64,000 nt of DNA from a bacterium (GTDB taxonomy: Bacteria; Bacillota; Clostridia; Lachnospirales; Lachnospiraceae): NCBI GenBank assembly GCA_023664305.1, contig JAMPFT010000001.1, forward strand, positions 383,609-447,608. Direction: 5' to 3'. The notes under the pieces were generated by a model. It was not told the origin of the DNA. It saw only the letters and a program-made list of their open reading frames with translations, and ran no database searches. Made by a program: the position numbers and the translations under genes. The first letter of the stretch is position 1; every line of letters starts with the position of its first letter. Positions 248 to 21,814 of this stretch are shown piece after piece.

Positions 248-1396
248 TTATTTCATTTGCCTTGCCACATCAAGCAAAGCCTGAAAATTGCTAAACACTT
301 CCTCTTTCCTTGTGCCAGGCCCCCAGCTAATCCTTACAGAACATTCAATCTGATCTATCGGGACCCCCATCTCCAGTAAAACATAACTTGGAGAATAACT
401 TTTCGATGTGCAGGCCGATCCATTAGATATACCGCAAAACTGCTTTGTAGATATCATAAGTGCTTCCGATGAAACACCATCTAAACATATATTTAGAGTG
501 CTTGAAATGCAATAATCCTGATCTCCGTTCATATGGTAAGATAATCCGGAATGCTCCAACATCGATAGCAAGCCTTCCCTGATCTGGTGAGACCGTTCGT
601 TATTGGATCGATATTCGGCTTCGGCTAATTCACATGCTTTACCGCATCCCGCAACAAGTGCAACAGGAATTGTGCCAGGTCGAATTCCACGTTCCTGCTG
701 TCCCCCATATATAATGGCCCTCACAGGTGGAAACCTATAAGATTTCTTTCTTAAAACAATAACGCCAACTCCCTGTGGTCCCATAAGCTTATGTGCGCTG
801 AAAGATAACATGTCGTATTTCGCAACTCTTAGTTCTTCAACTAATTTCCCACAGCTTTGAGTAGCATCCACATGAAAAAGTCTCCCTCTCCTCGATAACT
901 CGTCGCCTATTTCGTTCACCGGTTGGATTATACCTGTCTCATTGTTTACATGCATAACACTAACAAGAAGTGTCTGTTCCGTGACCTTGTTCAATATATC
1001 TTCTGCCTTCACTCTGCCGGAAAGATCTGGAGAAACAATGTCAACTGTAAAGCTTTCTTTTTCCATATGCTTTACCGTTTCCAAGACTGCCTTATGCTCA
1101 ATCGAAGTAGTAATAATTTGTTTTCTACCGCTCTCTTTTGCATAATCTCTAAGTCCCTGAATCGCGATATTATTGCTTTCGGTGGCTCCACTGGTAAAAA
1201 AAATCTCATCAGAATTTACTCCTAACAGGCTTGCAACCTGCTTTCTGGCGTTCTCTACTATCTGGCGCGTATCCTCACCATAAATATGAGTGCGACTATC
1301 TGCATTTCCAATATGATTTTTATACACGTCAACCATGTAATCAAGAACTCTCTCGTCAATAGGAGCCGACGCATTGTAATCCAAATACACACTCAT
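248..1396 (-). CDS. dndA: Cysteine desulfurase DndA (NifS/IscS family)
   Basis: This PLP-dependent enzyme takes sulfur from cysteine and hands it to DndC for DNA phosphorothioation. The 382 residues match the usual family length. Visible motifs are the class V aminotransferase start YLDYNASAP, the cofactor-binding TSGATESNN near residue 70, the PLP lysine in SFSAHKLMGP near residue 200, and the catalytic cysteine in GSACTSKSYSP near residue 325. The start codon overlaps the dndE stop in an ATGA arrangement, so translation is probably coupled. It is the last gene of dndCDEA. A housekeeping IscS could look similar, but the position directly after dndE makes the Dnd role very likely. Confidence 0.93.
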   Translation of the reverse strand: MSVYLDYNASAPIDERVLDYMVDVYKNHIGNADSRTHIYGEDTRQIVENARKQVASLLGVNSDEIFFTSGATESNNIAIQGLRDYAKESGRKQIITTSIEHKAVLETVKHMEKESFTVDIVSPDLSGRVKAEDILNKVTEQTLLVSVMHVNNETGIIQPVNEIGDELSRRGRLFHVDATQSCGKLVEELRVAKYDMLSFSAHKLMGPQGVGVIVLRKKSYRFPPVRAIIYGGQQERGIRPGTIPVALVAGCGKACELAEAEYRSNNERSHQIREGLLSMLEHSGLSYHMNGDQDYCISSTLNICLDGVSSEALMISTKQFCGISNGSACTSKSYSPSYVLLEMGVPIDQIECSVRISWGPGTRKEEVFSNFQALLDVARQMK

Positions 1397-1782
1397 GTTT
1401 TTTTCCCTTTAACCACAAGACCCGTTAGATCATCGATGTTCTTTATAAATCCCGTTCCGCTCAAGTGTGCTATACCTCTTTCGAGATTTAACCGAAAATA
1501 CTTAGCAACCGTCTCGTCATCAACAGGAAGAGACATTTTGATACACCATGCTTTTACCAGTGCTTCATATATTTCATAATACTCTCCGCCGAAGGTGAAC
1601 CAAGACATCTCCAGATTACTATCCTCAGCAACTATTATATCCGTAGGAATTGTTTGTTCACTAAGAGAGTAACAAAGCGCCCAGCGACACAAAATATTCC
1701 AATTTTTTATTCCTGTCTTGCCTTTCAGCCGTGAAAGCTGTTCTTTTGCCTTTTGCGACAGATGTATCTGCTTTACAATCAT
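1393..1782 (-). CDS. dndE: DNA phosphorothioation protein DndE
   Basis: A small basic protein of 129 residues, the usual DndE length. It begins with the family-like stretch IHLSQKAKEQLSRLKGKTGI, followed by NWNILCRWALCYSL, and has an SWFTFGGEYYEIYEALV segment in the middle. DndE is known to bind nicked DNA and is needed for sulfur insertion by the DndCDE complex. The gene overlaps both neighbours by four bases (ATGA at each end), a strong sign of coupled translation in dndD-dndE-dndA. The alternative of an unrelated DNA-binding protein is unlikely given this order. Confidence 0.92.
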   Translation of the reverse strand: MIVKQIHLSQKAKEQLSRLKGKTGIKNWNILCRWALCYSLSEQTIPTDIIVAEDSNLEMSWFTFGGEYYEIYEALVKAWCIKMSLPVDDETVAKYFRLNLERGIAHLSGTGFIKNIDDLTGLVVKGKKT

Positions 1783-3731
1783 GACTTAACTCCAATCAAG
1801 TATCCTTTTTGTATAGATGTGCTCTTGGATGCCTCATCGTAATTTAAAGTATATTCATCACCTATGTTCTTCTTCATTAACCTATAAGCTTCTTCACCAA
1901 TCTCCGAGTCTGTGGATAAAATAATAGTCTGCTCGCCCGCATTCGGAAAATATGTTGTAATCAAAGCTGTACGATGCAAAGAATCCATTCTGGATAGTGG
2001 AGTGTCAATTATCACCGGAAGTTTTTGTTTTGAGCATATAGTTAAAGCCCACAAAATCGAGATCACCAACAATTGTTTTTCTCCTGCGGACAAGGAATCT
2101 CTCGGAATCTCTTCGCCTTCATCAGATATACACTTCCAGTCAAGTGTTTCCGGATCCATTACAATTTTTTGAATTAATGACTTTTTATTCGCCAGCTTCA
2201 AATAGCAATCTGTAATCGCTAAAGCCAGTAGATCAACCTTTCTCCTTTGGAGTTCTACTTGATATCTACTTATGATATTCAATGCAATATTTGAATATTT
2301 TTCAATTCGATTAGTGCTGTCTCTAACCTCCACCATTGCTAAATAAGATTCAACCCGTTTATTGAGTTCTGACGATACTGCAATTAATTTTGCGTTTATA
2401 GTGCTTCTTTTTTGCTCCAGTTCCGCAATTATGACCTGATCATCAATGATTGCCTGCTCCACTTTTTTTATCTTTCTATAGACATTTTGCAGTTCCTGAT
2501 CATTTATGTCCAACCTCAGATAACTATCCATCTCATTAATCTGTTCCTTCAGCTTTGTTTTCTTCTCAAGCAATTTTTGAGCATCATTAAAAGTTTTTTC
2601 CAAAATCTCTTCTACAAGATTATTAACTTGAAACAAAGCCTGCTCAGACAATCCGTAAATCACCTCAGTCTGATTATTCTCCGTCTGCTTTTTTATATAC
2701 TCAATAAAATCTTTTCCTGCAATTTTGTCACCAGCATATTGTGAAACAAAACCTGCGAAAATATTGTCTAACTGTTGCATTGACTCGCGCATAATTGTAC
2801 TGATATGCTCATCTGTAGCCTGTACTTTTATTTCTGAAATAAAATTACTGACCAAAAGAAGCGGCATTTCTTCTGAAACCAGTGCATATAAAGTATCTTC
2901 AGTTTTAGACAACTCAACAGCCAAAGTACCTCTTTCCTTTAGTATCTCTTGCTGCTTGTTTACAATGTCCCCTCCCTTTGCTGTATACAGTTGATGCAGC
3001 GCATTTAAAGAATTACTGTTTCTGGCTGATTTTTTGTTGGCTTTTTCTAATGCAACATCAATTTCTTCCAATTCTTTTCCCGCAAGCTCTTTTTCTTCTC
3101 TTAATTGTTGAATTTCTTCAAATGTTTGATCCGGTTTTATTTTCCTGCTTAATCTTTTCAAATTACGCGCGATATCATTACTCAACATATCTAAAACAGA
3201 TATTCCCAGCATTGATCGAATCGAATTTTTTAACTGCATGTTTGTGCTGTCAACAGCCAGTTCTGCTATCTTTTCTCCATCAAAGAAGAAAAAGCTCGAC
3301 AATGCACTTGGGAGAATATTTTCAATAAAAAACGGCCAGTTGTTCGTAAGGAACTCATTGGATTCTCCGTCTTTGGTTACTGAAATCTGTTCCTTAGAGC
3401 GTTTATGGTCAGCATCCCAAGATCTTTTGATTATATAGTTTTCAGAGATTTCGTTATTTATTTCAAACTCAAGCGTTACACTGCATGTCTGATCTTGTGC
3501 TCCCCGATTGATAAAAGATCTTAAATAACCGGAATAAGTTTTTTGACCACTTTCAAAGTACGCAAAAGAGCTCGGTCCGTATAACGCCAACAAAACTGCT
3601 TCCAGGAAAGTCGTCTTGCCCCTGCCATTCATTCCACCAATCAGCACAATCGGCTTATTTCCCTCGAAGACAAACTCATTGTCTCCCGCATATACTCCAA
3701 AATTATGAAGCTGAAGTTTTCTGATTTTCAT
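1779..3731 (-). CDS. dndD: DNA phosphorothioation ATPase DndD (SMC/Rad50-like)
   Basis: An ABC-type ATPase of 650 residues with SMC/Rad50 architecture. The N-terminal head has a Walker A, GGMNGRGKTTF, near residue 33. Long charged coiled-coil segments fill about residues 190-480. The C-terminal head has the signature LSAGEKQLLVIS and a Walker B, LPVIIDTPLSRMDS. DndD is known to power or shape DNA during phosphorothioate incorporation together with DndC and DndE. It starts six bases after the dndC stop and its end overlaps the dndE start. Length, motifs and neighbours agree. Confidence 0.94.
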   Translation of the reverse strand: MKIRKLQLHNFGVYAGDNEFVFEGNKPIVLIGGMNGRGKTTFLEAVLLALYGPSSFAYFESGQKTYSGYLRSFINRGAQDQTCSVTLEFEINNEISENYIIKRSWDADHKRSKEQISVTKDGESNEFLTNNWPFFIENILPSALSSFFFFDGEKIAELAVDSTNMQLKNSIRSMLGISVLDMLSNDIARNLKRLSRKIKPDQTFEEIQQLREEKELAGKELEEIDVALEKANKKSARNSNSLNALHQLYTAKGGDIVNKQQEILKERGTLAVELSKTEDTLYALVSEEMPLLLVSNFISEIKVQATDEHISTIMRESMQQLDNIFAGFVSQYAGDKIAGKDFIEYIKKQTENNQTEVIYGLSEQALFQVNNLVEEILEKTFNDAQKLLEKKTKLKEQINEMDSYLRLDINDQELQNVYRKIKKVEQAIIDDQVIIAELEQKRSTINAKLIAVSSELNKRVESYLAMVEVRDSTNRIEKYSNIALNIISRYQVELQRRKVDLLALAITDCYLKLANKKSLIQKIVMDPETLDWKCISDEGEEIPRDSLSAGEKQLLVISILWALTICSKQKLPVIIDTPLSRMDSLHRTALITTYFPNAGEQTIILSTDSEIGEEAYRLMKKNIGDEYTLNYDEASKSTSIQKGYLIGVKS

Positions 3732-3737
3732 ATGTTG

Positions 3738-5234
3738 CTATTCCTCGTCATCCTCATCCTCAAACTCTGCCGTTTGAAAGTCTAAGAATTTTTCATTATA
3801 TTTACCGCCATGCTCTTTCTTTCTGATCATCAGATCAGAATAAAATTTTGTAGCATCGTCTTCATCTTTATAAAAGTTTCTGCTGATTGTATCATTAATG
3901 CTGTTAAGTATATCTTTCCTTTGACTTACTCCAACTGCCTGATTCTCCAGGTCAATCAATGTAAACATCATCTCAAAGGCCAACTCTTCATCTGGATACA
4001 TTTCATGGCAAATATTTTCTAATATCCTCCACTCCGCCTCACCAAAATTGTCGTTATGTATCCATTCTGGATCGTCGAAAGATTTCTCAAACACCCTTTC
4101 ATATATCTTCGGCAGCGAATCGTCAAACTCATGCTTATCATATACCCAGATCCGGCGAATCGCACGAAGCTCCGGAATTTGGATAAGCTCCAAATCCCGG
4201 AACTCATCCGGGCCATTTATATTTATATCATTCTGAATCCTCAACAACCTTTCAAGCCATTGTTCTCTGACATCCTTTCTATATGGACCATGAAAAAGTT
4301 TTCCATAATTCCCTTGTAAATTGCCTTTCATACGTCGGAAGCTTCTTCGTTCACGGTCTCCATCCTCATTCCCAAATTCGTTTCTGAATTCCAGAAGGGG
4401 AGTCATCCATTCCTTTTCCTGATCATTAGCAATCATTGCTTCCATCGACTTATCTTTTTCAACCATAGTGCAGACCCAGCACCCGAACCTACTCTTACCA
4501 CAAGATGGAGCGTTTTTTTCGATCTGTAAAGGGCATTCGTTATCTGCGGTAGCACCTCTGTACATCGTTAATAAATCCATGTTAGAATACCCCCATGGAT
4601 TTTTGTACTGCATTAGAAATGCCCACACATCATCATCAGACCAATCCTCCATCGGGGAAAAGACCAGTTCATTCGCAAGTGTAGGATTCGGGCTCAAAAG
4701 CTCCCTTACGCGTCTTTTTTCAAGATTAGTCATTGTACGGTTTCTTCTTAAACTTTCCTGCTTTCTGGTTCCCAGTACAAGTATGATCTCTCCGTGTTCG
4801 GCAATCTTACTTCGAATAAAGCTATTAACCGGTTGTATTTTTAATCTGTCGGTACACCAGCGATATTTCATCCTCGGAAAAGGATATCCCCTTCCAAGAA
4901 GATTTACCCAGAATGTATTATTATAATCCGGGAGCAGTCGCACTGGAACAAACGGAAGCTTTTTATAGTCTGCCTCAGTCTTCATCTTCTCAATGGATTT
5001 CTCTACCCATTTCGAGACAACAGGAGATTCCACTAAGGTATCCGTGTTCATTACATGTATTACTTTGTTTCTCTCGTTCTCAGACAACTTTTCAATCGCC
5101 ATCCACACCAGCTGAACAGCCGCCGTACTGTCCTTTCCTCCAGAATATCCTATCATCCATGGAATGTCATCCGCCAAGTACAGATTTTGTATTGTCACAA
5201 TTAAGCCGTCTATCAATTCTTTTGACAAAGCCAT
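3738..5234 (-). CDS. dndC: DNA phosphorothioation sulfurtransferase DndC
   Basis: An adenine nucleotide alpha-hydrolase/PAPS-reductase-like enzyme of 498 residues. The P-loop-like PP motif SGGKDSTAAVQ lies near residue 29. Cysteines likely to bind the 4Fe-4S cluster or carry sulfur sit in YRWCTDRLK, DNECPLQIEKNAPSCGKS and FGCWVCTMVEK. DndC is known to activate the DNA backbone with ATP and insert the sulfur delivered by DndA. The C-terminus is very acidic (EFEDEDDEE). The start is preceded by a GAGGAG ribosome site at a rather long spacing. dndC opens the modification operon behind a dedicated promoter; dndB, which normally sits in front of it, is absent. Confidence 0.94.
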   Translation of the reverse strand: MALSKELIDGLIVTIQNLYLADDIPWMIGYSGGKDSTAAVQLVWMAIEKLSENERNKVIHVMNTDTLVESPVVSKWVEKSIEKMKTEADYKKLPFVPVRLLPDYNNTFWVNLLGRGYPFPRMKYRWCTDRLKIQPVNSFIRSKIAEHGEIILVLGTRKQESLRRNRTMTNLEKRRVRELLSPNPTLANELVFSPMEDWSDDDVWAFLMQYKNPWGYSNMDLLTMYRGATADNECPLQIEKNAPSCGKSRFGCWVCTMVEKDKSMEAMIANDQEKEWMTPLLEFRNEFGNEDGDRERRSFRRMKGNLQGNYGKLFHGPYRKDVREQWLERLLRIQNDININGPDEFRDLELIQIPELRAIRRIWVYDKHEFDDSLPKIYERVFEKSFDDPEWIHNDNFGEAEWRILENICHEMYPDEELAFEMMFTLIDLENQAVGVSQRKDILNSINDTISRNFYKDEDDATKFYSDLMIRKKEHGGKYNEKFLDFQTAEFEDEDDEE

Positions 5235-5243
5235 TTTATAATC

Positions 5244-5396
5244 TCACTCCTCAACAACTTCCCGTAACATCTCTTCAGCATATTGCTTTTCCTGCGTAGC
5301 GGCATTCCCGTCTGCTGTTTTATAATATTAGCAATAAGCGTTGCCACTTCCTTCTTCGTTATAATCCATCAGCACGCATATACCACTGTTTTTCAT
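5244..5396 (-). pseudogene. Decayed short reading frame in the dndC leader
   Basis: The long leader between the dndC promoter and its start codon holds a frame beginning MKNSGICVLMDYNEEG. It is broken by an in-frame TAA at 5330-5328 and then continues for 27 codons of plausible protein (ending YAEEMLREVVEE) to a TGA nine bases before the dndC ATG. The fragment before the TAA could also act as a 22-residue leader peptide. No homologue is recognised, and a lost upstream gene is only one explanation. Confidence 0.3.
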
Positions 5397-5494
5397 TTCT
5401 GCCCCATCAATCTACTCTGTTTTTCCAAACAAGTTTCCATGTCAAATTAATTTGAGTGCAAATGATATGCTTAATTCATTATTTGTCTCCAAAA

Positions 5495-5526
5495 CGCTAT
5501 ACTCAAATATATACTTAAGTGTAGCG
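5495..5526. promoter_or_regulatory. 32-bp palindromic operator at the dndC promoter
   Basis: Starting CGCTATACTC and ending TTAAGTGTAGCG, this stretch matches its own reverse complement at 26 of 32 positions, and all mismatches are transitions. It covers the -10 box and the predicted transcription start of dndC. A related half site plus a perfect 12-base palindrome, CAAATTAATTTG, lies in the leader at 5443-5454. This is what a binding site for a dimeric repressor would look like. The cognate regulator is not encoded in this window. Confidence 0.6.
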
Positions 5527-5546
5527 TCTTTTCCCGTTTCTGTCAA
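5518..5546 (-). promoter_or_regulatory. SigA-type promoter of dndCDEA
   Basis: Read on the minus strand, a perfect -35 TTGACA (5546-5541) is followed after 17 bases by TACACT (5523-5518). The start would be near 5511, giving a leader of about 275 bases before dndC. It lies just past the stop of the upstream 226-residue gene, so the modification genes can be transcribed independently of the helicase genes. Confidence 0.6.
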
Positions 5547-5561
5547 TATACCCAAAACAGT

Positions 5562-6242
5562 CTAACCCCTGAAACTGATCACAAATTTATCATCTAAGCT
5601 TTCCTTCTTAATCCATTCTATGATGGCGGGGGTCACGTCAGTTACTCTTGCTTTTCCTAATGTTACCTTAACGATAAACCCCTTGATCTCATCGCTTAAA
5701 TTCAAACTCTCCTCCAATTCGTCGATTCTTTCTATAGCTGATTTAAAAAGAGCCAGCCTTGTATGTATGCCATCATCAGATAAAGATAAGCCTGACCACT
5801 CGCCTCCATTTGAGATGTTCTCCCTAAGTGCTGAGATTATTTCCTTATCACTCACCAGATTCCCTAACGTATTCAACTTCGATATGCTGCTTTGGGTCTT
5901 TTTTCGATAGTACTCCCTCCATTCCTTTGTAAGATTAGAATTAATCTTTCTGATCTGCTGACGGGCACCTGAAAGAGCCTCGGCATCCACCACTCCCGAA
6001 GAAACAATATTATCCAACTTATCAATACATTCCTCCAAGTTCTGAACCGTTTCTCTGGACACCGCATAGTCAAACACGCTTACGGTTTGCTGCAGCTTAT
6101 AAACAGTATTTGAAAAATCACCTACCACCGTTTTATAATCAGTATCATTCTTTGCTTTTTTTTCAGCGTCCAGAGCCGCATTTTCCAATATGGCCATCTG
6201 TTTCATTTTCTTAACAGACCGGTTAAGGTTAGCCAATAACAT
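5562..6242 (-). CDS. Uncharacterised coiled-coil-rich protein of the defence operon
   Basis: This gene encodes 226 residues and I do not recognise the family. The sequence is mostly charged helix with likely coiled coils (about residues 5-110 and 130-180), without signal peptide, membrane segment or visible catalytic motif. It ends in a mixed segment, VTPAIIEWIKKESLDDKF. Its start overlaps the end of the large ATPase gene by 14 bases, so it is probably co-translated and may be a subunit or regulator of that ATPase. It is the last gene before the separate dndC promoter. Confidence 0.75.
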   Translation of the reverse strand: MLLANLNRSVKKMKQMAILENAALDAEKKAKNDTDYKTVVGDFSNTVYKLQQTVSVFDYAVSRETVQNLEECIDKLDNIVSSGVVDAEALSGARQQIRKINSNLTKEWREYYRKKTQSSISKLNTLGNLVSDKEIISALRENISNGGEWSGLSLSDDGIHTRLALFKSAIERIDELEESLNLSDEIKGFIVKVTLGKARVTDVTPAIIEWIKKESLDDKFVISFRG

Positions 6243-9200
6243 GATTCTTCTTTACCTCCTCAATAACACTCCGGCATAAATTTAATTTCTCCTTCTCGTT
6301 CTTAAATTGATCTTCAGACTCTTCCCCTAAACCCGTACCCAAATCAGCCATACGTTTATCTGCCTCAAGGTCAACTGTCTCTACATCCGTGCTAACCACC
6401 TTCAGCAATTCCACAAATATCTTTATCCACCGCATGGGATCCCTACTCAACCTAATCAGCGATTCAACAGAGTCCTGTGTTTTAAGAATCTCCTGGGCAT
6501 TCTTTATAGCACTCAGAATCTGCGTGGCGCTTTTCTTACAGGCATTGATCTTGCCAAGGTCATAATGTACCGCAACACTTACATGACTAGTCTGCGCTTG
6601 TGAATAGAATTGCCCTATTTTCTTTATTATATCTTCAATGTCACCTGTTGTTTCCAGACCTTCCAGCTCTATAAGCGTTGATAAGAACTGAATCTGTGAA
6701 GATAATGCCTCTTTTTCGCCCTCAACAACTACATCGACTCGTTCAAGGATCTTCTTTAAATGCTCACTGTACATCCTCCTTTTCCTGACAGAATCATCCA
6801 ATTGCAATTCTTCGTCTGTAAAGTGCAGGCCAGATCTTATGACTTTATGTACAGCCTTGTTGTATGAAACATAGTCATACTCATAGTTCGTTGAGTTACT
6901 TGCATTACCCTGTGGAAGGTTATAATATTGCAAAACACAATTATGTGCTTCCATTCCGTCAGAACCATTCAAAATCTTCAATAAATCATTCCAATTTTTT
7001 GTATGGAAGTTCTCTTCCGTATTTGCCGGATTTTTAGCAAGCAACATTTCTGCCGTAAAGTTTTGCGGACTCTGATAATTCTTACAGTATCCGTTAAAGA
7101 TCAGTCTGTAATATTCCGCTGCAGCTGCGTAAGTAAAATAGTCCGTTTTCTTATCGTCATAGCTGATAACCGCTTTTACGATGAATGGCTTTATGCTCTC
7201 GCTCCATCTCTGCACCCGGTATAGGTAATCTGTAGAACCCTTAAAATTCCAAGATTTCTTTCCTACTTCACTCCAACGAACAAACGCCTCTATAATCTTT
7301 CTCGACTCAATCGAGGCAGGCAGGGTAATCACAGCGTCACTTTTCATTGTCTGACGCTCGAATGCCACAAGAAACTTATTGGTATCCTTGACCTTCACCA
7401 TGGCATCAATAGAAACACCTTCCGAAAGCCAGTCAATGGTATCAAAAAGATATCCGTTAATATTCTTTCTTACATCGTTTAGGGCTCGTACATTTTTTGT
7501 TGTCGCACCTATATTTAGCTTGTAATCTTTTTGCTCTATCCAGCGGTCTGCTTCAGCCAACGCTATCAGTACCTGCTCATTTTCTTTCTCAGGCGTTTCC
7601 TCAACCGTAGGTCCTTTTCCGTCCCATCCGCCGACTTTGCTATTATCCTGTTGACTTTCCTGCAGCCCGCTGTCATCGCTGACCTGCACCCCGTCAATAA
7701 TCGGCAAGCCAAGTTGCCGATACACACTTGATGGAATGCCCGCTACAATCTTCTCTCCATTCCTTTCTGATAACCGCAAGGTGCCGTCTCCCCATATATA
7801 CATGAAGAATGACAACCTGATTTTTGTAGCGTCATCTAACGTGTTGTTATTATATATCGAATTCTGTAACTCTGTATTTGACGCCTGAAATGATGGTCTA
7901 CGCAACGGAAATTCGTCCAGATGTTCCATTGCATCCTTGATATAGGGCTCAATAATCTCCCTCATCAATGCTCTGGGATTTCTCTTATTGGTCTCCTGCT
8001 TTTCGTATAGGAATACGATAGCATTTTTTGTAAACGGAAACAAATTGATCGCCTGTCCATTATATTTATACTCTCCCCATCCTTTGCCAATTGTGTCCGT
8101 ATGGATCGGATAGTTATTCAGATCCGCCTTTCCGTCCTGAACCCATTTACTTATATCTTCCGTAGAAAGAGAGATTGTATTCAGATATTTTGCAAAGAAC
8201 TCGATCAAACCGCTCTGATTCCCTGAAAACAGATCGTCAGGAACATATACAAAATTATGTATCCTCCCTTTGGTATTACTTCTGAATTTCTCTCTATAAT
8301 AACCACCCGTTGAACCCACCACCGCATTGAGTCTGCACATGTTCTTATCCGGATACTCTATTTTATCCGTCAGCAGGGCATCAAGCAGAGAATCATCAAC
8401 TCCGGATGCTGCAGTAATATCTTCAATCAGTATGGTTAATGTTTTTCCTTGTTTAAGCAGTTCCCGTCTTATTTCTTCGATCACACTGGCCAGATCACCC
8501 GGTTCTAATCCCGCACAACGCTGTATAACCTTGTCTACAAAAAGATTCATGTATTCTTTTACAGAGTCCACAAAATCCGGTTTCCCAAGCAGTTTATCCG
8601 CAATCTTTCTTGCTTTATCATCTGCGCCCAAATACAGCTGGTTACGAAATTCTGCATCTATCTCGAAATCTTCTCTGACGAACTCGGGCGCTTTGTCATT
8701 GATCTCATTTGTTCTATTTTCGGCAAACTTCCCATATATACGGTCTATAGGGCCATCATCATCCATGAGCCTCGTTTTGAACAAAGAATTCTGTAGTAAA
8801 GCGATTAGATGCTTTCTGTCAACATTATTGACTTTTCTCTCCCCCTCTTCATCTCCCGCTTTCCCATCATCATTAGTGACCTGAATGATAAACTGATAAT
8901 AAATCGTTTCCTTCAGTTCTTTTTCAGAAACCGCTGCCGCCGCTGATGCAAGCTTTTTGTACAATTCCCTGTTAGGAAGATCTCTGACTTCCGGAAGCTC
9001 AATCAGCTGTCTGATCGTTCCTTTAAGAGTATTATCAGCCCTCCTGATCGGAAGGACAATTTCGTCCTCAGATTTTCTTATCTCAAGCACAGAGTTAATC
9101 CATCTGATCAGATGAGACTTTCCCGCACCGCTGTCACCTATTACCAGAACGAACTGATCCTCTTCCTTTTCACCCATAAATTGTTCGTACACATCTTCTT

Positions 9201-9375
9201 CCGTTTTCGGATGTTTTTTATCCTGCTCCGGCACTTCAGCATGATCTGTCAGCTGCTCCGTTACATAAAGCCTCTTCATTGGAACATGCGTAGCAAGGAA
9301 ATCCCCTTGCGAGTTATGCATAACATCTGGTCGAATAACATCCATGTATCTTCTTCTCGCTATATCTATATTCAT
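6229..9375 (-). CDS. Large P-loop ATPase, DpdH-like
   Basis: A protein of 1048 residues. After a short N-terminus comes a Walker A, VIGDSGAGKSHLIRW, near residue 80, and a Walker-B-like strand, KTLTILIEDITAASG, near residue 315. The rest is helical with no recognised nuclease motif. Size, motif layout and order next to the two helicases and the small protein resemble DpdH of deazaguanine DNA-modification islands; this assignment is from memory of the family, not a search. It overlaps the preceding gene by four bases (ATGA) and the following gene by 14. It probably acts in recognising or restricting DNA that lacks the phosphorothioate mark. Confidence 0.7.
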   Translation of the reverse strand: MNIDIARRRYMDVIRPDVMHNSQGDFLATHVPMKRLYVTEQLTDHAEVPEQDKKHPKTEEDVYEQFMGEKEEDQFVLVIGDSGAGKSHLIRWINSVLEIRKSEDEIVLPIRRADNTLKGTIRQLIELPEVRDLPNRELYKKLASAAAAVSEKELKETIYYQFIIQVTNDDGKAGDEEGERKVNNVDRKHLIALLQNSLFKTRLMDDDGPIDRIYGKFAENRTNEINDKAPEFVREDFEIDAEFRNQLYLGADDKARKIADKLLGKPDFVDSVKEYMNLFVDKVIQRCAGLEPGDLASVIEEIRRELLKQGKTLTILIEDITAASGVDDSLLDALLTDKIEYPDKNMCRLNAVVGSTGGYYREKFRSNTKGRIHNFVYVPDDLFSGNQSGLIEFFAKYLNTISLSTEDISKWVQDGKADLNNYPIHTDTIGKGWGEYKYNGQAINLFPFTKNAIVFLYEKQETNKRNPRALMREIIEPYIKDAMEHLDEFPLRRPSFQASNTELQNSIYNNNTLDDATKIRLSFFMYIWGDGTLRLSERNGEKIVAGIPSSVYRQLGLPIIDGVQVSDDSGLQESQQDNSKVGGWDGKGPTVEETPEKENEQVLIALAEADRWIEQKDYKLNIGATTKNVRALNDVRKNINGYLFDTIDWLSEGVSIDAMVKVKDTNKFLVAFERQTMKSDAVITLPASIESRKIIEAFVRWSEVGKKSWNFKGSTDYLYRVQRWSESIKPFIVKAVISYDDKKTDYFTYAAAAEYYRLIFNGYCKNYQSPQNFTAEMLLAKNPANTEENFHTKNWNDLLKILNGSDGMEAHNCVLQYYNLPQGNASNSTNYEYDYVSYNKAVHKVIRSGLHFTDEELQLDDSVRKRRMYSEHLKKILERVDVVVEGEKEALSSQIQFLSTLIELEGLETTGDIEDIIKKIGQFYSQAQTSHVSVAVHYDLGKINACKKSATQILSAIKNAQEILKTQDSVESLIRLSRDPMRWIKIFVELLKVVSTDVETVDLEADKRMADLGTGLGEESEDQFKNEKEKLNLCRSVIEEVKKNHVIG

Positions 9376-10163: not shown

Positions 10164-10185
10164 AATTTTATCCCTTCTCGGCTTC

Positions 10186-15600: not shown

Positions 15601-15982
15601 CTGCTCCGGAAAAAAAGGAAGCATTAAGTTTTTCCTCATTCACGCATAAATATTCCTTGCTGTCATCATCTTGAACATAATAGTCAAAGCTCTCATCTTC
15701 CCTGACTTTATATTCAACTATGGTAGCTGAATGAGATTCATATTTGACCTTTGAGCCCTTAAATAGACGACAATGATCTAACACCGCCAAAGGCGCCTCT
15801 TTTACCTCTTCAGGTATATATTCAAAAAACTTCTTATAGCCAAACGGGTCGGCAAACATTATGTGTGCCGTCTCATTAAACTCATTTACACTGACCACCT
15901 TCCCTGTTGCAAATATCCTTGGATTCTGTGGGTACTCACGGTCAACCGGACACCTGACAAAGACTCCTTTTTTTATCATCAT
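12596..15982 (-). CDS. SNF2-family helicase/translocase, DpdE-like
   Basis: A protein of 1128 residues. The N-terminal 130 residues resemble a beta-rich DNA-binding region. The SNF2 core has Walker A ADEVGLGKTIEACSIL near residue 195, the DEVH box VIVDEVHN, and a second RecA domain with CDKSGGEGRNLQ and QRIGRLDRMGRNVQIPV. An acidic insert (VDEADPHENEDVQDQ) lies between the lobes. It starts 13 bases after the AddB-like gene and overlaps the RecQ-like gene. SNF2 ATPases of this kind translocate on duplex DNA and are common in restriction and DISARM-like systems; size and neighbours fit DpdE best. Confidence 0.78.
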   Translation of the reverse strand: MMIKKGVFVRCPVDREYPQNPRIFATGKVVSVNEFNETAHIMFADPFGYKKFFEYIPEEVKEAPLAVLDHCRLFKGSKVKYESHSATIVEYKVREDESFDYYVQDDDSKEYLCVNEEKLNASFFSGAANPVHQLAKYEFHNPCWYLGRQIVKDIMNILDNSIFGFKELAGCKIYLKAFQVNTIMRCLQSEKCRYMLADEVGLGKTIEACSILKIFLSNKAGKNILIVVPRVLRAQWKTELLFKFGILEGENENGHFLLIETMEDLKDAGCKTKWDFVIVDEVHNCISNLVIYEKIHTLSINAENIILLSATPIQQRREEYLKLLRLIQPAIYDVINIDEFTGLVDKQNQISQLTHALLDDIDSFKNEVLPEVDEADPHENEDVQDQLTELEEVLNDLSSLIGDDTLKKMVSSIDTGKEDFGLYDMQVVISYICDNYQIERSIIRGRRAILGVYPKDEDGEFAERHLEEITYPLGDSVNYYEFEAYRTLKEWIVKNQENIDAARVGSEIQPVLEAFFSSPWAYRARLKEVNGKNASVPENVRKSADRWVEDEDDILQKMTEILDDVESHPSRLVNIVSYIETNLYNKKTVVFTDHIETFDVYYRVLYEAFGEEVVGFSIEMDKDEAEINIYRFQSDPKCTILICDKSGGEGRNLQIADYVIHIDLPWNINTIEQRIGRLDRMGRNVQIPVTSVVIHTTESYEEQLFNLWNQGLNVFGQSLSGLEIIMNDINHKIADSICTDFEFGLYRLVPELIKEAGQMRETVRREQIFDTAALRYRPLYNQLERLLSNYQFNENDLFAQTMMSWASLAGFGVVHQNKDSGLVAFDENNFSIRSAQNSFLIPPSWDSYLIKKQNEIAIRVQRGVEEEKQKKIFKNNRIIQGSFDREVAIKNDYIHFYAPGDEIFDCITENAMHSYKGMAAAFAALSSVEWKGFVFTFSVEPNERILLDEGISLYSLGLFRQYLSTSIQVIPIAFPAYDDVPLKIVLSEHGRIARTGYFNQSDQIEHLGRRGFENGFLRVPKRYRCSILDWFKSYYPEEKWEKLVVQGGRIARKEAGDKFKAESNLTGAREMIEQILSTHEAKSNYYGIKVTESLDLIKKQYEIIYDSLRKPIIRMESACFMWLVKDNG

Positions 15983-15995
15983 AGTACCTCATCGT

Positions 15996-18665
15996 TTATT
16001 TTCGAATGCTTCTGAATACTTCCAGACAGATATCTTTGTCTGCACATTTATCGCATAAACTATTGCGCGATCTCCTATATTTATCCTGTTCCAAATTTTC
16101 TTCGCTCAATACACTGTCTACTTCTGCCTGTGTTGCATTTTTAAACACTTCTCTAAATGCTATATCAGCTGTTTTGCTATTTGGCAGGGAAAGAAAATTT
16201 TCACGTTTGACCATATAGTCAACTTCCCCGGCTTTAATATTTGTAAATTTTCCACAAAATACCGCATGCTGCTCAATATAATTCTCTGCCATATTTATCA
16301 CATCTACCTTTTCAGACCGATTAAGGAAAGGAAAGTCATATGCCAACTCATCCATCTGTTCAATCAGATAATTTCGCACCATACTCTTTACATAAGTTTT
16401 CCCGGAAAACTCTTTCCGTGTTCTGTGTTCCAGCAAGACTATCAGATACCTCTTTAGCAGGAAGTCGTCTTTATATACTGACTTCCCTTCAATAATTGTT
16501 TCCAACAGAAAACGATATCTGCATAACCTGTATTTCATCAGATCATACTGTGAAAACTTCCTGTATATCGAATCTTTTACCTTGATATATCGGTCATTTT
16601 TCTTCCATGTATTTGGATCATCTAAACTGTACGGCACCGGATTAGCATTCAACACTTTGAGTAGATAGTACATTTCGTTTTCATGATCCGGAGCATTTTT
16701 TATGTAACTCAGTTTTATCTTGCATTTACTAAAAGCAAGCCCGTAGACCAGCGCATATCTTCTGAAATTCTTATACTCCATGCGTGATGTGACATAGACC
16801 TGATACTTCCAATCTACCGGAGCCTGCGCCACTTCAAAAAAATCCATATCAAGGGGCCACGAAAATTCATCTCCATGCGTGATACTCATATCGCAGTCGG
16901 ACAGGCACGCAAAATGATAAACCACATCCTGCTCCTTATAGTTCTTTCTTAGAATATCTCCATCAATCTGTTCAAAATTCCTTGCGATCCAGTATGCACC
17001 TTTTCCCTCTGCCGGCACCTGCTGAAGATAGATCTGCATCGTCTCACGCAGACAATCAAAAGATGCCTTGGCCTCAACACCCTGAACCTCTTTCAAACGC
17101 TCCAGCACCCTCTGGACAATTTCCCTGAACTCAGAATCTATATCTTCTTTAGACAGCACCTCTTTAACCAATACATCTGAGACTTTATCATAAAACACTT
17201 TAAAGTCATTCTTCTGATCACTAAAATCCATGAAGAAAGTCTCTGCGATCTCATTTAATGCTGTTAAAGCTGTTATCAGTTCATCAATTTCATCAGGAGC
17301 AACATCAAAATATTCAATGCGGGAAAGTTCCTCCATTTCCGCAGAACCTGAATCCAGTTCTTCGATTCTTTCCTTTAACTCTTTAAGCTTTCTATTTATT
17401 CTTTTTATCGTTTTCTCATCTTGAAAATATAATTTGCATTTATCAAATATCGAGACAGCCTGTCCTATATTTGCTTCCGCAATAATACCGCAGGAAAGAC
17501 ACTCGTATATATCCTCGATATTCTTTATATTCATGCCTTTCGTTTCGTCATCCCATAAGTTAGTTATCGCAATAAAAAAATGTCCAATCGGATAATCGAG
17601 AAAGTTTCTTTCTCCAAACTGCTCTGGAAAGTAAATTTTCAAAATATCATTTACATTGCTGTTTGCTGCATAGATTTGCTCATCCATGTAATAAAGGGAC
17701 GAACCCGCATAATTATGCTTCGCCCGCTCCACCTCAGCCTTTTCAAACTTTTTGGCAATATATCCCGCGAATTCCGTTTGATTATCAAACTCAGTTACCT
17801 CAATCCGCTCAGAATAATCAATTGTCGCCGTACTCCCGGCTATCATTGCCGCAATATTATCAGCGATACGGCTACCTTCAAACTCCTTACTATGATCATA
17901 GAAATTATGAGGCGATAAAATTATCTTACTCTCAAACCACGAGTACACATTCAGCCATGTTTGATATACATTTTTATAGTCCGGGACATAATTGAACAAG
18001 ATGAATACATTTTTATATTTACTCAGAAGTTCTATGGTTTTCAGCATAATTGGAGAAAACTGATGTATTCCGTGAATTACAATAATGTCCCTTTTTACTC
18101 CTTCAAGTTTATCCCTGTAAATCTCTTTGCGCAACGCTTCCTCCATTGTCTCTGAAATGGCGGAATTAATTTCTTCATTGGTAAAATCGTTTTTAATCAG
18201 GAAATGCTTATTTCCATTTTTTCTCAATTCCCTGTAAATTTCAACCACACATTTTTGTTCATAGGTTAACGCAGCGTCCTGTATATGATCCGGATTCATA
18301 TCAAGTTCAAACATGATCCTGATACTCTTTACAACATATGCACGGTTCCGCTTGAGAGATAATCTGACATCATCAATATCAATAGATTCATCAAGAATCT
18401 CATTAAAACTTATATATTCAATGAGGTTATCAACTGTAGCCCTCTGATTGATCTCCGTCACAGGACTTTCCCATTGATCATGCAGTTTATTAACAAACCG
18501 CGTAATCGTTGTGAGTTTTCCCTCAAAAAAGTCGCTGTATTGGTCACACAAACCACTTGCCAAAGTCTGCGATGCGCACAAATGGAAACCGTTTTTAATT
18601 AACGCCCAATACGGTTCCTTATGTAATCTATAAGGATTGCTATATGTGTAAATGACTATTGCCAT
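15996..18665 (-). CDS. AddB-like protein with iron-sulfur cysteine pattern
   Basis: A protein of 889 residues with no intact Walker motif. It reads like a degenerate UvrD-type scaffold followed by an AddB/RecB-like C-terminal nuclease fold. One cysteine in KYRLCRYRFLLE near residue 710 and a C-x2-C-x5-C group at the very end (CDKCADKDIC) reproduce the four-cysteine layout of the AddB iron-sulfur domain. I cannot see a clean PD-(D/E)XK catalytic motif between them; the matching stretch reads FTNIKAGEVDYMVKRENF. The gene overlaps the NERD-UvrD helicase gene by ten bases, so the two products probably form an AddAB-like complex. Nuclease activity is uncertain. Confidence 0.65.
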   Translation of the reverse strand: MAIVIYTYSNPYRLHKEPYWALIKNGFHLCASQTLASGLCDQYSDFFEGKLTTITRFVNKLHDQWESPVTEINQRATVDNLIEYISFNEILDESIDIDDVRLSLKRNRAYVVKSIRIMFELDMNPDHIQDAALTYEQKCVVEIYRELRKNGNKHFLIKNDFTNEEINSAISETMEEALRKEIYRDKLEGVKRDIIVIHGIHQFSPIMLKTIELLSKYKNVFILFNYVPDYKNVYQTWLNVYSWFESKIILSPHNFYDHSKEFEGSRIADNIAAMIAGSTATIDYSERIEVTEFDNQTEFAGYIAKKFEKAEVERAKHNYAGSSLYYMDEQIYAANSNVNDILKIYFPEQFGERNFLDYPIGHFFIAITNLWDDETKGMNIKNIEDIYECLSCGIIAEANIGQAVSIFDKCKLYFQDEKTIKRINRKLKELKERIEELDSGSAEMEELSRIEYFDVAPDEIDELITALTALNEIAETFFMDFSDQKNDFKVFYDKVSDVLVKEVLSKEDIDSEFREIVQRVLERLKEVQGVEAKASFDCLRETMQIYLQQVPAEGKGAYWIARNFEQIDGDILRKNYKEQDVVYHFACLSDCDMSITHGDEFSWPLDMDFFEVAQAPVDWKYQVYVTSRMEYKNFRRYALVYGLAFSKCKIKLSYIKNAPDHENEMYYLLKVLNANPVPYSLDDPNTWKKNDRYIKVKDSIYRKFSQYDLMKYRLCRYRFLLETIIEGKSVYKDDFLLKRYLIVLLEHRTRKEFSGKTYVKSMVRNYLIEQMDELAYDFPFLNRSEKVDVINMAENYIEQHAVFCGKFTNIKAGEVDYMVKRENFLSLPNSKTADIAFREVFKNATQAEVDSVLSEENLEQDKYRRSRNSLCDKCADKDICLEVFRSIRK

Positions 18666-21600
18666 GAGTCACTCACCTCCAGATACCGGCCCCAACTGTT
18701 TTCAATATCATTATCAACATCCCTAAACCACACAACATTCCGGATTGCTCTGGTTAACGCGACATACAGGACTCTTGATTCTTCCCGCATCTTCTCGCTG
18801 ACTTCCGTTTTTTCATCAAATCCACTGCTATAATCAAATCCTGTTTTATCAAAAGAAAGTCCATAAAAAACCTTACCATCAACAATGTTTACATTTAAGT
18901 CACCGATCCTGATATTGGAGATATCTTCACCGGTAAACGGAATAATCACCGTACCGTATTCAAGCCCTTTTGATTTATGGATCGTCGTACATATTACTTG
19001 TATCTCATCAGATTGAACCGTCCTATTGCGTGAGGCTTCTTCCTGATAGGTCGTAATATTGATTTTAAGGAACTTGTATATTTTATTGATAGTAAGATAT
19101 TCCCGAGAATACCTTCTGGTAATCTTCTCAATCAGACATTCGTAGTTTTCCCTGTATTCCCTTCTTTCGATTTCTCCACAGCAATGTGTCCAAGGCTTTG
19201 TCGCCTCATAAATATCGCGCAGAATCACCAATACAGGTCTTGACTCAAAGTCTGATACAATCTGTTTCCAAGCCTTTCCTGTATGCAACATAAAATACTC
19301 ATCCAACAGCCTGATTAATTCTTTCGTTTTATTTACTTCTGTATATCCTGATATTTTAGCAAGGTTGACACCCAGATCCACATAATTTGACCTTAAAAGA
19401 CTGGTTAAATAAATCTTATTGCGTGGATGAGTAATTGCCATAACAAGCTTATACAAATCCATAGTGGACGGCAATCTGTATAAATCTCCACCTTCAGTAA
19501 CCTTAACAGTGACCCCGGCTTTTTCAGCTTCCTCCAAAATTTTATTGATCTGCCAGTTATAACGAACGAGAATTGCAACCTTCTTTTCTTCCGCTGAAAG
19601 TCCATTGGATTTACTGATAACTTCAAGCTTACTAAGTTGATTGTTTATCTCTTTAAAGAGAGCATCAAACATGCCTTCTTTATTCTTGCCATGCACATCA
19701 ACTTTCTTAATCAAATGCCCCTCATCGTATTCCTTTATAACTCTGCTTTTGAGTCTATCCCGTGTTTCCTCATACGGGAGAAGCCCATCACTGCCCAGAC
19801 CGGCAAATATATAATGGAACCTGTCCAGCAATCTTCCATCTGTACGATAGTTGTGATTAAGTGTATACTCTTTCCAACTACCAATACCAACTGTTCCTAA
19901 AACTTTGTCAAAGGCACTCAGTGTAGCACCTCTAAACCGATAAATACTCTGCTTAAGGTCTCCAACTACAAACAGCCTACAATTGTCCAGGAATAATTTT
20001 TGTAAGCCTGTTATAGTTTCAATCTGCACATCGTCCGTGTCCTGAAACTCATCCACAAAAACATACTTATATCTGGTTCCCTGACTCATCAACATGCCGG
20101 AACCAACAAGATCATGAATCTGAATCATACATTCCTTAAGACTCATCAGGTTATTCTGTTTAAGCTGCAGAGCGTACTGCATTTCCGCCCTCATAATCAC
20201 TCGTTCAATCAACTCGTTGAAATAGGGCATACTCGCAGGCGGGTTACCGAAATCATTGATGGAAAGGTTCTTTATATCAACGCTACGATCATACAGTTTA
20301 TCACAAAAAGAAATCAGTAATTCTTCAAGTTTATATGTCGGCATAATAAGCTGACGTACAAAATCAGGATTCTCTTCATCCTTGTCCAGAAGATACTCAT
20401 TCAAATACTGATGATAAAGCTGCTGCCTGTTATATGTTTCATTTGTAATCTGACTATCATAGCCCAACCCTATTCTCATGCAGTCTTTCTGGAGCAAAGA
20501 AATCGAAAACTTATGGATTGTGGAAATCTGGATTTGACTCATTTCTTCGATCAGATGCATAAATTTCTCATTTGAAGTGAGAATAAAATAGTTCATAAAC
20601 ATATTCTTCAATCTGCTTTTCATGTTCACTGCAGCATCTTTGGTAAACGTTATCATCGCGATCTCACCTGAGATATCCACAACCGCATCCGCAATTTTAT
20701 TACATAGGTATGCCACGCGGGACACCATTGAGTATGTCTTTCCGGTGCCTGCACCCGCCGTAATCAATATATTCTCATTTGTCGGCGCGTGTTCTATCTC
20801 ATATTGTTGGAAATTAAAGCCCGTTTTTTCAGAAAGCTTTTTAAGTATTTCTCCTTCTTCTTTGGAAAAAATGCCCTCCTCAATTAACAGATCGTCCTGC
20901 ACATATGTCCCCAAATCAGAAACCGCTTCTATTTCACAATTAAAGATACTATATCTATCCTTAATTTTACTTCTCGCCACAATTTGATCATTTTCGGATC
21001 TCAAAGCGCCGATAACAAGATTGCTTTTATCCGGCCAGATCCCTCTCCTTATAAAGCCCGCTTCAAGTTCTTCCACTATTTTCAAAAGAGCCTCTCTTGA
21101 CGAAACGAAAACTATCTCTTTTATGCCTCTGAAATATTCCTCCGCAATTTTCTCAGCGTATTCATCATGAAAATCTCCCTTGTATATTCTGAGCCTTGAA
21201 TATCCGGGATTTAGCAATTGCCGTTCTTCCTTCAGGTCATAGTTAGGCTCAAAATGATGACGTATTAAAGCAAACTTTTTAGCATCAAGGTCATCATGCT
21301 TTGCCCCTTTATCAATGGTATACCTTTCATTAATCTTCTGAAATAACTGTAACGGATCCGACAGTTCCTCCTCAAAAAATGTTTCATTTACTTCCGATAC
21401 CACATTGAGGCCTTTCGAAAAGTATTCATCTTCAGATATAAACGGATAACAGACAAAGCTCATTACTAAAGGATCCATTCCCAGTTCCCGCTGGATTTTC
21501 TTCCGCAAATCAAAGCGATATCCCCTGGCCTGTCCTCGCGGACTATCTTCTGGATTCTCTACTCCAGCCAAAATAATTGTATTGGAATCTATCACAGTCA

Positions 21601-21799
21601 ATATACCGTCAGGATTCCACCCTTTTACTTCAACAATAAATAGCCCCATATTAGGTACCATAACGCAAAAGTCATATTCACGCCCGTTCACACTTCTTGT
21701 GTTATAGACAACCCAATCAGATGGAAGATTCTTGGAAAAGGCGTGCCAAACTTTCCTTTCACCTTCATATTGGGGTTCTTTGTCAACCATCTTTGCCAT
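18656..21799 (-). CDS. NERD-nuclease/UvrD-family helicase
   Basis: A protein of 1047 residues. The N-terminal NERD domain shows GREYDF and FIVEVKGW (the E-x-K pair near residue 56). A superfamily 1 helicase follows, with Walker A TAGAGTGKTYSMVSRVAYL near residue 350, Walker B FVDEFQDTDDVQ near residue 600, and motif VI VLYVALTRAIRN near the end. I start at ATG 21799, eight bases after GAGGTG; a GTG three codons earlier is also open. UvrD/RecB-type helicases move 3' to 5' on DNA. It is the first intact gene of the island operon and pairs with the AddB-like gene that overlaps it. Confidence 0.85.
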   Translation of the reverse strand: MAKMVDKEPQYEGERKVWHAFSKNLPSDWVVYNTRSVNGREYDFCVMVPNMGLFIVEVKGWNPDGILTVIDSNTIILAGVENPEDSPRGQARGYRFDLRKKIQRELGMDPLVMSFVCYPFISEDEYFSKGLNVVSEVNETFFEEELSDPLQLFQKINERYTIDKGAKHDDLDAKKFALIRHHFEPNYDLKEERQLLNPGYSRLRIYKGDFHDEYAEKIAEEYFRGIKEIVFVSSREALLKIVEELEAGFIRRGIWPDKSNLVIGALRSENDQIVARSKIKDRYSIFNCEIEAVSDLGTYVQDDLLIEEGIFSKEEGEILKKLSEKTGFNFQQYEIEHAPTNENILITAGAGTGKTYSMVSRVAYLCNKIADAVVDISGEIAMITFTKDAAVNMKSRLKNMFMNYFILTSNEKFMHLIEEMSQIQISTIHKFSISLLQKDCMRIGLGYDSQITNETYNRQQLYHQYLNEYLLDKDEENPDFVRQLIMPTYKLEELLISFCDKLYDRSVDIKNLSINDFGNPPASMPYFNELIERVIMRAEMQYALQLKQNNLMSLKECMIQIHDLVGSGMLMSQGTRYKYVFVDEFQDTDDVQIETITGLQKLFLDNCRLFVVGDLKQSIYRFRGATLSAFDKVLGTVGIGSWKEYTLNHNYRTDGRLLDRFHYIFAGLGSDGLLPYEETRDRLKSRVIKEYDEGHLIKKVDVHGKNKEGMFDALFKEINNQLSKLEVISKSNGLSAEEKKVAILVRYNWQINKILEEAEKAGVTVKVTEGGDLYRLPSTMDLYKLVMAITHPRNKIYLTSLLRSNYVDLGVNLAKISGYTEVNKTKELIRLLDEYFMLHTGKAWKQIVSDFESRPVLVILRDIYEATKPWTHCCGEIERREYRENYECLIEKITRRYSREYLTINKIYKFLKINITTYQEEASRNRTVQSDEIQVICTTIHKSKGLEYGTVIIPFTGEDISNIRIGDLNVNIVDGKVFYGLSFDKTGFDYSSGFDEKTEVSEKMREESRVLYVALTRAIRNVVWFRDVDNDIENSWGRYLEVSDSWQ

Positions 21800-21814
21800 A
21801 AAGTACACCTCATC

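Follow-up and report, generated by a model that had tools for sequence, protein, structure and literature searches.

The window analysed here, a 64,000-nucleotide stretch of a Lachnospiraceae genome (contig JAMPFT010000001.1; assembly GCA_023664305.1, 94.64% complete), carries at one end the genes dndC, dndD, dndE and dndA, whose products are expected to write phosphorothioate (PT) into DNA, and, upstream of them, relatives of dpd genes from the islands that place 7-deazaguanine in DNA. A restriction core that is familiar from the modification of bases here stands beside a backbone modification, and the question is whether it forms a working system with the genes for the second mark. We consider it probable that it does, and that the locus encodes one PT-based restriction system in which the Dnd writer module is combined with a branch of the Dpd core dedicated to PT and equipped with an AddAB-like NERD nuclease.

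Gene content of the island

The genes lie in a low-GC island of 21.6 kb (GC fraction 0.36–0.41) that ends near position 22,000; the fraction is 0.44–0.59 across the remaining window and 0.47–0.56 in the window's left flank, of which 6 kb were measured. The list of open reading frames resolves the island into 11 genes, all on the minus strand and running from 21808 down to 248. Neighbouring genes overlap or are separated by at most 22 bases, with the single exception of a 327-bp gap before dndC. In order of transcription, the features are as follows.

18656..21808, minus strand: NERD-UvrD, 1050 residues, the first gene; amino-terminal NERD (PD-(D/E)XK) nuclease fused to a UvrD-type superfamily 1 (SF1) helicase (Pfam)
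15996..18665, minus strand: u889, an 889-residue putative AddB/RecC-like partner (fold match of an AlphaFold model)
12596..15982, minus strand: DpdE-like SNF2 helicase, 1128 residues (NCBIfam DpdE, 2.5e-108)
10186..12603, minus strand: DpdF-like RecQ-type helicase, 805 residues (NCBIfam DpdF, 2e-139)
9372..10163, minus strand: DpdG-like protein, 263 residues (NCBIfam DpdG, 5e-10, residues 11–241)
6229..9375, minus strand: DpdH-like P-loop ATPase, 1048 residues (NCBIfam DpdH, 5.5e-89, residues 12–996)
5562..6242, minus strand: DpdI-like small protein, 226 residues, overlapping the end of dpdH (identified by gene position, by size and by similarity at the C terminus)
5235..5561, no strand: the 327-bp gap, the position of dndB in most related loci (locus comparison)
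3738..5234, minus strand: DndC, sulfurtransferase resembling phosphoadenosine phosphosulfate reductase, 498 residues (TIGR03183)
1779..3731, minus strand: DndD, SMC/Rad50-like ATPase, 650 residues (TIGR03185, PADLOC)
1393..1782, minus strand: DndE, 129 residues (Pfam DndE, 3.5e-38; TIGR03184)
248..1396, minus strand: DndA-type cysteine desulfurase, 382 residues (Pfam Aminotran_5, 5.4e-68; TIGR03235)

A candidate promoter, TTGACA-17-TACACT, at 5546–5518 faces dndC; the consensus scan gave five sites in 5100–5700 where 1.7 were expected. Rfam returned no matches at positions 1–26000.

A complete Dnd writer beside a divergent Dpd core

DndC, DndD and DndE exceed the curated NCBIfam cut-offs (603.2 bits with TIGR03183 against 290.4; 439 bits with TIGR03185 against 245.85; 113.2 bits with TIGR03184 against 71.85), and PADLOC recognises DndD at 6e-248. 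The adjoining cysteine desulfurase scores 415.8 bits with TIGR03235 (1.6e-124), under the equivalog cut-off of 480, and in PADLOC it matches SspA (6e-126) and DndA (3e-121). The Cys residues of DndC are kept across 32 aligned rows. The writer set is thus complete, as a preliminary description made from the letters of the window had stated.

That description had also likened four upstream genes to dpdE, dpdF, dpdG and dpdH, and the NCBIfam matches listed above, which span most of each model, bear this out. All four lie under the curated equivalog cut-offs, and we therefore regard the proteins as divergent members on a separate branch. PADLOC agrees with the identities of DpdE, DpdF and DpdH and, weakly (0.002), with that of DpdG. 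The helicase motifs of DpdE are conserved in 31 Dnd-linked rows, and the GKSHLI sequence of DpdH is invariant across 29 aligned rows that include both Dnd-linked and Dpd-linked proteins. The profiles rule out both DptFGH and PbeABCD as the effector, the sole similarity to PbeA being a helicase-level match (6.5e-10) in DpdF.

The 226-residue product of the gene after dpdH is probably DpdI-like, judging by its position, size and C-terminal similarity. Genes for proteins of 217–234 residues occupy the same place in the Dpd-type loci L005 and L007–L010; BLASTP against the Paenibacillus counterpart gives 3e-7 over the C-terminal 47 residues, which hold a common motif, and counterparts occur at E ≤ 1e-5 in the Dpd-type loci L047, L048, L049 and L058. 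No profile named DpdI matched the protein; we take the name from the position of its gene after dpdH.

Other Dpd-system genes were also sought. DpdA (NF041059) has no match in the assembly; within the window, DpdJ and DpdK have none at E ≤ 1e-3, QueC and QueE none, and the DpdB and DpdD queries none at 1e-6. DndB (PF14072) likewise has no match in the assembly. The absence of dpdA and dndB had been noted in the preliminary description, as had that of dptFGH/dndFGH; for the latter, DptH has no match in the assembly, DptF and DptG not having been searched genome-wide.

A putative AddAB-like helicase-nuclease pair

Three genes of the island lie beyond the set first described, namely those for NERD-UvrD, u889 and the DpdI-like protein. 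NERD-UvrD matches the Pfam families NERD (1.2e-8), UvrD-helicase (1.4e-43) and UvrD_C (2.6e-20). In an alignment from which the L022 protein, split in two frames, was omitted, E17, D46, E60-x-K62, AGAGTGKT (351–358) and DEFQD (586–590) are invariant in all 11 full-length proteins, the window's included. The UvrD_C match extends to residue 1024 of 1050, and a C-terminal nuclease domain such as that of AddA is not found.

The product u889 belongs to no Pfam, PADLOC or NCBIfam family. Its AlphaFold model (predicted local distance difference test score 82.4) has as its best fold match the AddB chain 4cei_B (E 2e-13; template modelling score, normalised by query, 0.52), followed by other AddAB B chains and then by the RecBCD chain 1w36_F and UvrD-like helicases. 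Cys715, Cys871, Cys874 and Cys880 are invariant in 22 aligned sequences. In AddB, a C-x2-C-x5-C pattern with one further upstream Cys has an iron-sulfur role. The alignment contains no N-terminal Walker A motif and no invariant D/E-x-K after Cys715, so that u889 is probably no nuclease but a catalytically silent partner. On the strength of the fold model, NERD-UvrD and u889 can be described as an AddAB-like pair, a UvrD-type motor with a predicted AddB-fold partner. AddAB and RecBCD share with it the motor, the AddB/RecC fold and the cysteine pattern; it differs from them in that the nuclease is the N-terminal NERD domain and in that the AddB-like part lacks the invariant D/E-x-K. The conserved NERD triad and Walker motifs and the AddB fold are among our reasons for reading the locus as a single system. 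The same genome also encodes an ordinary AddB at another place.

Two other identities for u889 were rejected. As DpdD, it has no profile match and gives a BLASTP E-value of 0.47 against a 935-residue DpdD-like protein of Paenibacillus; as a relative of a Protein Data Bank sequence, its sole match is at chance level.

Related pairs occur in other settings. On plasmid pJS1-2 of Geobacillus zalihae (L006, 15981–22954), a UvrD-type helicase that shows no NERD region when aligned accompanies a u889-like protein (profile 1.3e-66); the pair adjoins a 472-residue UvrD-like helicase and may be a small AddAB-like defence set that stands alone. In Paenibacillus sp. 37, the Dpd locus of plasmid pART37 (L005) contains DpdJ twice; downstream, the gene for a distant u889-like protein (2e-11) precedes that for a UvrD helicase.

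Recurrence of the pairing

A DpdH alignment was used in tblastn against 84,980 species genomes, giving 168 relatives. The 80 best of these represent 78 distinct loci, chosen by likeness to the window's DpdH, and the counts that follow are not natural frequencies. Neighbours were typed by tblastn at 1e-3 over at most 10 kb on each side of a locus. DndC and DndD stand beside DpdEFGHI at 31 of the 78 loci, and 29 of these 31 also encode NERD-UvrD and u889; neither DpdA, QueC, QueE, DpdJ nor DpdK was found at any of the 31. At least one of these Dpd markers is present at 23 of the 78 loci and at five of six plasmid loci, and neither DndC nor DndD occurs at any of these 28. The effector family is hence common to two DNA-modification chemistries, as had been proposed. 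Chance or misannotation is ruled out by the recurrence of the same neighbours at 31 loci.

Following the DNA further added four Dnd-linked loci. At L020, L028 and L034, genes for DndC, D, E and A lie 5' of NERD-UvrD, beyond the flank; in the L028 genome DndC (409.8 bits) and DndD (353.5 bits) exceed their cut-offs, and DndE (46.5) and DndA (353) fall below. For L035, a different contig of its metagenome-assembled genome (MAG) carries DpdI and, behind it, DndA-E-D-C in convergent orientation.

In whole-genome searches, DndC (TIGR03183) is over its cut-off in 14 of 14 Dnd-linked genomes; DpdA is found in none of these 14, the window's included, and is over its cut-off in seven of nine Dpd-type genomes. 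This contrast, together with the neighbour counts at the 31 and four loci, argues for a single system. DptH (TIGR03237) is present in one of 18 genomes, being absent from the window's and from 16 of the 17 others. The exception, Brevibacillus dissolubilis (L054/L108), has a single dndBCDEA set between the DpdEFGHI/NERD-UvrD module and DptFGH, the genes for DptF, DptG and DptH following dndA, so that two effector sets adjoin one writer. That this one writer is flanked by the present effector on one side and by DptFGH, whose restriction is known to depend on PT, on the other is further support for the single-system reading.

The lack of dndB is a local trait of the window and five other loci (L014, L026, L029, L036 and L039) and not of the system, because a dndB reading frame lies beside dndC in 26 of the 31 Dnd-linked loci (tblastn); in the downstream same-strand loci it stands between DpdI and DndC. 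By PF14072, DndB is present in 12 of 18 genomes searched. At L020 a DndB-family protein (14064–15383; 6.6e-41) follows DpdI, though the dndCDEA genes of that locus sit at the opposite end of the cluster.

The carriers are mostly Bacillota, with some Actinomycetota. They include Lachnospiraceae, Eubacteriaceae, Erysipelotrichaceae, Selenomonadaceae (Pectinatus), Sedimentibacter, Moorella, Desulfosporosinus and Brevibacillus, as well as Actinomycetota MAGs and one MAG titled Alphaproteobacteria; named species include Schaedlerella arabinosiphila, Eubacterium ramulus, Pectinatus frisingensis and B. dissolubilis. In a phylum sample of 398 genomes, DpdH matched its own genome and one other at chance level (9.9e-4), and 93 pattern matches in viral contigs yielded no relatives. 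The locus of Eubacterium plexicaudatum (L022/L118) looks decayed, NERD-UvrD and dndB each being split in two frames.

Effector ancestry and module exchange

Quick maximum-likelihood trees with approximate likelihood-ratio (SH-aLRT) supports were built for DpdF (78 rows), DpdH (81 rows) and DpdE (63 rows). With rows that have no visible partner left out, each tree requires a single change between Dnd and Dpd. The Dnd branch of the DpdF tree comprises 38 rows with a support of 100, of which 32 were initially Dnd-linked and six had no visible partner; counting the window and the followed loci (L020, L028, L034 and L035), a Dnd partner is found for 36 of the 38.

The Dnd module occurs in three arrangements: downstream on the same strand; downstream and convergent (L045, L050, L053 and L109); and upstream with a divergent DndCDEA (L098–L100). 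In the last, DndC is over its cut-off in the three genomes scored, and in the one tested further DndD is above and DndE and DndA are below theirs. Pairwise identities were correlated over 30 loci, the window included, in which all six proteins are long enough (L013 and L022 were dropped from 32). The coefficients are 0.93–0.96 among DndA, DndC and DndD and 0.96–0.99 among DpdE, DpdF and DpdH; across the modules they fall to 0.65–0.77. Individual pairs of loci show the same: DndD is 91% and DpdE 45% identical between L016 and L041, and 77% and 42% between the window and L029; the reverse holds for L053 and L054 (31% and 60%). Because of these lower cross-module correlations and the swap pairs, we conclude that the writer and effector modules have recombined between lineages with the pairing retained. 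Its retention through three arrangements and these swaps, with 36 of the 38 branch members Dnd-linked, again favours a single system. Near-identical DpdF proteins in genomes labelled as different families (L024/L043, L027/L044 and L013/L016) suggest recent horizontal transfer.

The same exchange, and the three positions of the Dnd module, would suit an account in which two separate systems travel side by side in a defence island, a Dnd writer whose partner is lost or distant and a mark-independent Dpd-like helicase system. The presence at L037 of DpdEFGHI with no Dnd genes also fits this account, as does the printed record, in which Dnd modification genes without DndFGH are common (PMC10853773, in the parts consulted). 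Independent co-travel is nevertheless hard to reconcile with the concentration of Dnd partners in one effector branch, with the absence of Dnd genes from the flanks, of at most 10 kb, of all 28 loci bearing Dpd markers, and with the divergent DndCDEA that has joined anew at the opposite end of the cluster. We think it rather improbable.

Several observations weigh against the reading of a single, PT-dedicated system. The trees carry long-branch warnings and were built without bootstrap, and when partnerless rows are given a third state of their own, the number of changes required for the Dnd label is four for DpdF (before relabelling), five for DpdH and two for DpdE. Neither partner is visible at 20 of the 78 loci, many of them cyanobacterial or on short contigs. 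Two members of the Dnd effector branch have no Dnd partner in their MAGs: L037 has neither DndC nor DndD, and L033 lies on a cut contig. DndC is over its cut-off on other contigs of four of the nine Dpd-type genomes (cyanobacteria L064, L069 and L077; Chloroflexota L059), so that one genome can hold the genes of both marks; it is not over the cut-off in the genomes of L033, L037, L046 and L057. At L030 and L042 the Dnd-DpdEFGHI core is retained, but NERD-UvrD and u889 give way to a DrmB-like protein and a NERD-SF1 helicase. The exchange of modules might, moreover, be a sign that they are only loosely coupled in function. Finally, profile alignment of u889 with AddB by hhalign is weak (probability 19%; reversed control 0.5%; DpdH against AddB reaches 37% through its P-loop), and the AddB kinship of u889 therefore rests on the fold model.

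The preliminary description had further suggested that one effector family may read either mark. The one-change trees and the different nuclease parts (mostly NERD-UvrD with the AddB-like protein on one side, DpdJ and DpdK on the other) point instead to specialised branches; the family apparently serves two chemistries through dedicated branches and not as one promiscuous reader. The single switch in each tree also counts against a further explanation, according to which the effector senses DNA ends or damage in the manner of AddAB, and PT does no more than shield the host DNA or stop the nuclease from advancing, with no dedicated PT reader among DpdE–I. The AddB fold with its UvrD partner accords with such a sensor; moreover, relatives of DpdF–I accompany 7-deazaguanine genes too, and DpdEFGHI at one Selenomonas locus (L057) is near a cytosine-5 methylase gene, both of which disfavour a mark-specific reader. 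Since the trees suggest mark-dedicated branches, we regard end sensing as unlikely, while taking it seriously.

Proposed mechanism

For the preferred PT-based restriction system, the families suggest the following scheme. DndC, DndD, DndE and DndA would introduce PT at a short sequence motif of the host's DNA. DpdE and DpdF as motor helicases, with DpdG, the P-loop ATPase DpdH and DpdI, may form the sensing and motor core that reads the mark, and NERD-UvrD and its AddB-like partner may assemble into a helicase-nuclease resembling AddAB and RecBCD, in which NERD is the only intact nuclease seen. The effector most likely acts on PT-free DNA, loading on or travelling along unmarked incoming DNA, which the NERD domain would cut while the UvrD motor, with the AddB-like part, processes the ends; PT would thereby protect the host. 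Restriction of unmarked DNA is the likeliest polarity by analogy with DndFGH, which is reported to spare PT DNA (PMC11662687, in the sections consulted).

The opposite polarity, in which the effector binds PT and is switched on by it as SspE is, has precedents in the PT-stimulated SspE and the PT-stimulated ATPase of DndI described in the same source. Among the 11 genes, neither Pfam nor PADLOC detects a known PT-sensing domain such as DUF262 or HNH, and in Brevibacillus the writer is common to DptFGH, for which sparing of PT DNA is reported there. Activation by PT thus seems to us improbable, and, by a small margin, the least probable of the three alternatives.

Relation to known systems

The locus shares with Dpd islands the families and the dpdE-F-G-H-I order; it differs in having no match to DpdA, QueC/E, DpdJ or DpdK, in that its mark genes are Dnd and in its nuclease part, NERD-UvrD with the AddB-like protein. 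The available part of PMC11888242 calls the genes from dpdD to dpdK the Dpd restriction operon; the survey there would miss Dnd-Dpd loci because dpdA and dpdB were required. With DndABCDE-DndFGH (DptFGH) the locus has the writer genes DndC, D, E and A in common, but its effector is of other families.

DndCDEA-PbeABCD, which the preliminary description had offered as a precedent, is one in kind, being likewise a DndB-less DndCDEA writer with a non-DndFGH effector (PMC6459918, as excerpted). The precedent does not extend to the genes: PbeA–D are of other families, with no PbeA ortholog and no second PbeC-DndE (ATPase-DndE) pair among the 11 genes, and the window's DndD scores 6e-248 as DndD against 1e-149 as PbeC. 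Weak co-variation of writer and effector is also reported for that system in the same excerpts. BRIGADE is likewise a hybrid that uses Dpd-like parts; as far as the accessible text of PMC12458937 goes, it is reported from archaea that are halophilic, together with YprA-type helicases and a cluster of 7-deazaguanine genes, whereas the window has PT genes and no DpdJ match.

We found no description of the Dnd and DpdEFGHI pairing in the literature searched, which is not a claim that it is unpublished. No paper there contains both 'phosphorothio' and 'DpdF'. Rakesh et al. (2024; PMC10853773) treat Dnd neighbourhoods in depth and place NERD nucleases at their borders; the main text has no occurrence of Dpd or 7-deaza, and the supplement may hold such loci. 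The portion of PMC12458937 covered, on YprA-type systems, has no occurrence of phosphorothio, and papers that name Dnd, Dpd and phosphorothioate, among them PMC12839542, do not link the two in the passages concerned.

Under the preferred reading, DndFGH, PbeABCD, DndI and the Ssp effectors would be joined by another large type of effector for PT modification, and some dnd loci without DndFGH may be explained by a Dpd-type effector. With relatives of one core serving two chemistries, swaps could ask how a restriction core separates marked from unmarked DNA.

The core with other partners

DpdEFGHI also occurs with DISARM-type proteins. At L030, a DrmA-like protein (8.5e-94), a DrmB-like protein (7.9e-21), both below their cut-offs, and the NERD-SF1 helicase stand ahead of DpdEFGHI and DndBCDEA; L042 matches the DrmB-like and NERD-SF1 proteins of L030. 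In two Selenomonas MAGs (L037 and L057), DpdEFGHI is joined to a near-canonical DISARM DrmA (882 and 939 bits; cut-off 950), and at L057 DrmB exceeds its cut-off. The order at L057 (with L125) and L037 is DpdEFGHI, DrmA, DrmB or an MZB-domain protein, and a UvrD-type helicase, with NERD present in L057. Neither MAG has a match to DpdA or DndC.

Given these DrmA/DrmB-linked loci, DpdEFGHI looks like a core that has recombined with several writers and nucleases. A broader proposal, which we advance tentatively and with some doubt, is that DpdE-F-G-H-I is a general, exchangeable restriction core that swaps of writers and nucleases have connected with no fewer than two and possibly three unrelated self-marks (7-deazaguanine, phosphorothioate and, for the Selenomonas loci with DISARM-type DrmA/DrmB, possibly 5-methylcytosine), and that one branch of this core became dedicated to PT and gained the AddAB-like NERD nuclease.

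The Selenomonas loci possibly represent a third mark for the core. The cytosine-5 methylase gene near L057 scores 1.9e-65 (L125, 3567–4763); no such methylase is recognised at L037 in the stretches listed. L119 is grouped with L030 and L042 as Dnd-DpdEFGHI with a DrmB-like protein and a NERD-SF1 helicase in place of NERD-UvrD and u889, and it additionally shows a DrmA-like protein and a further helicase.

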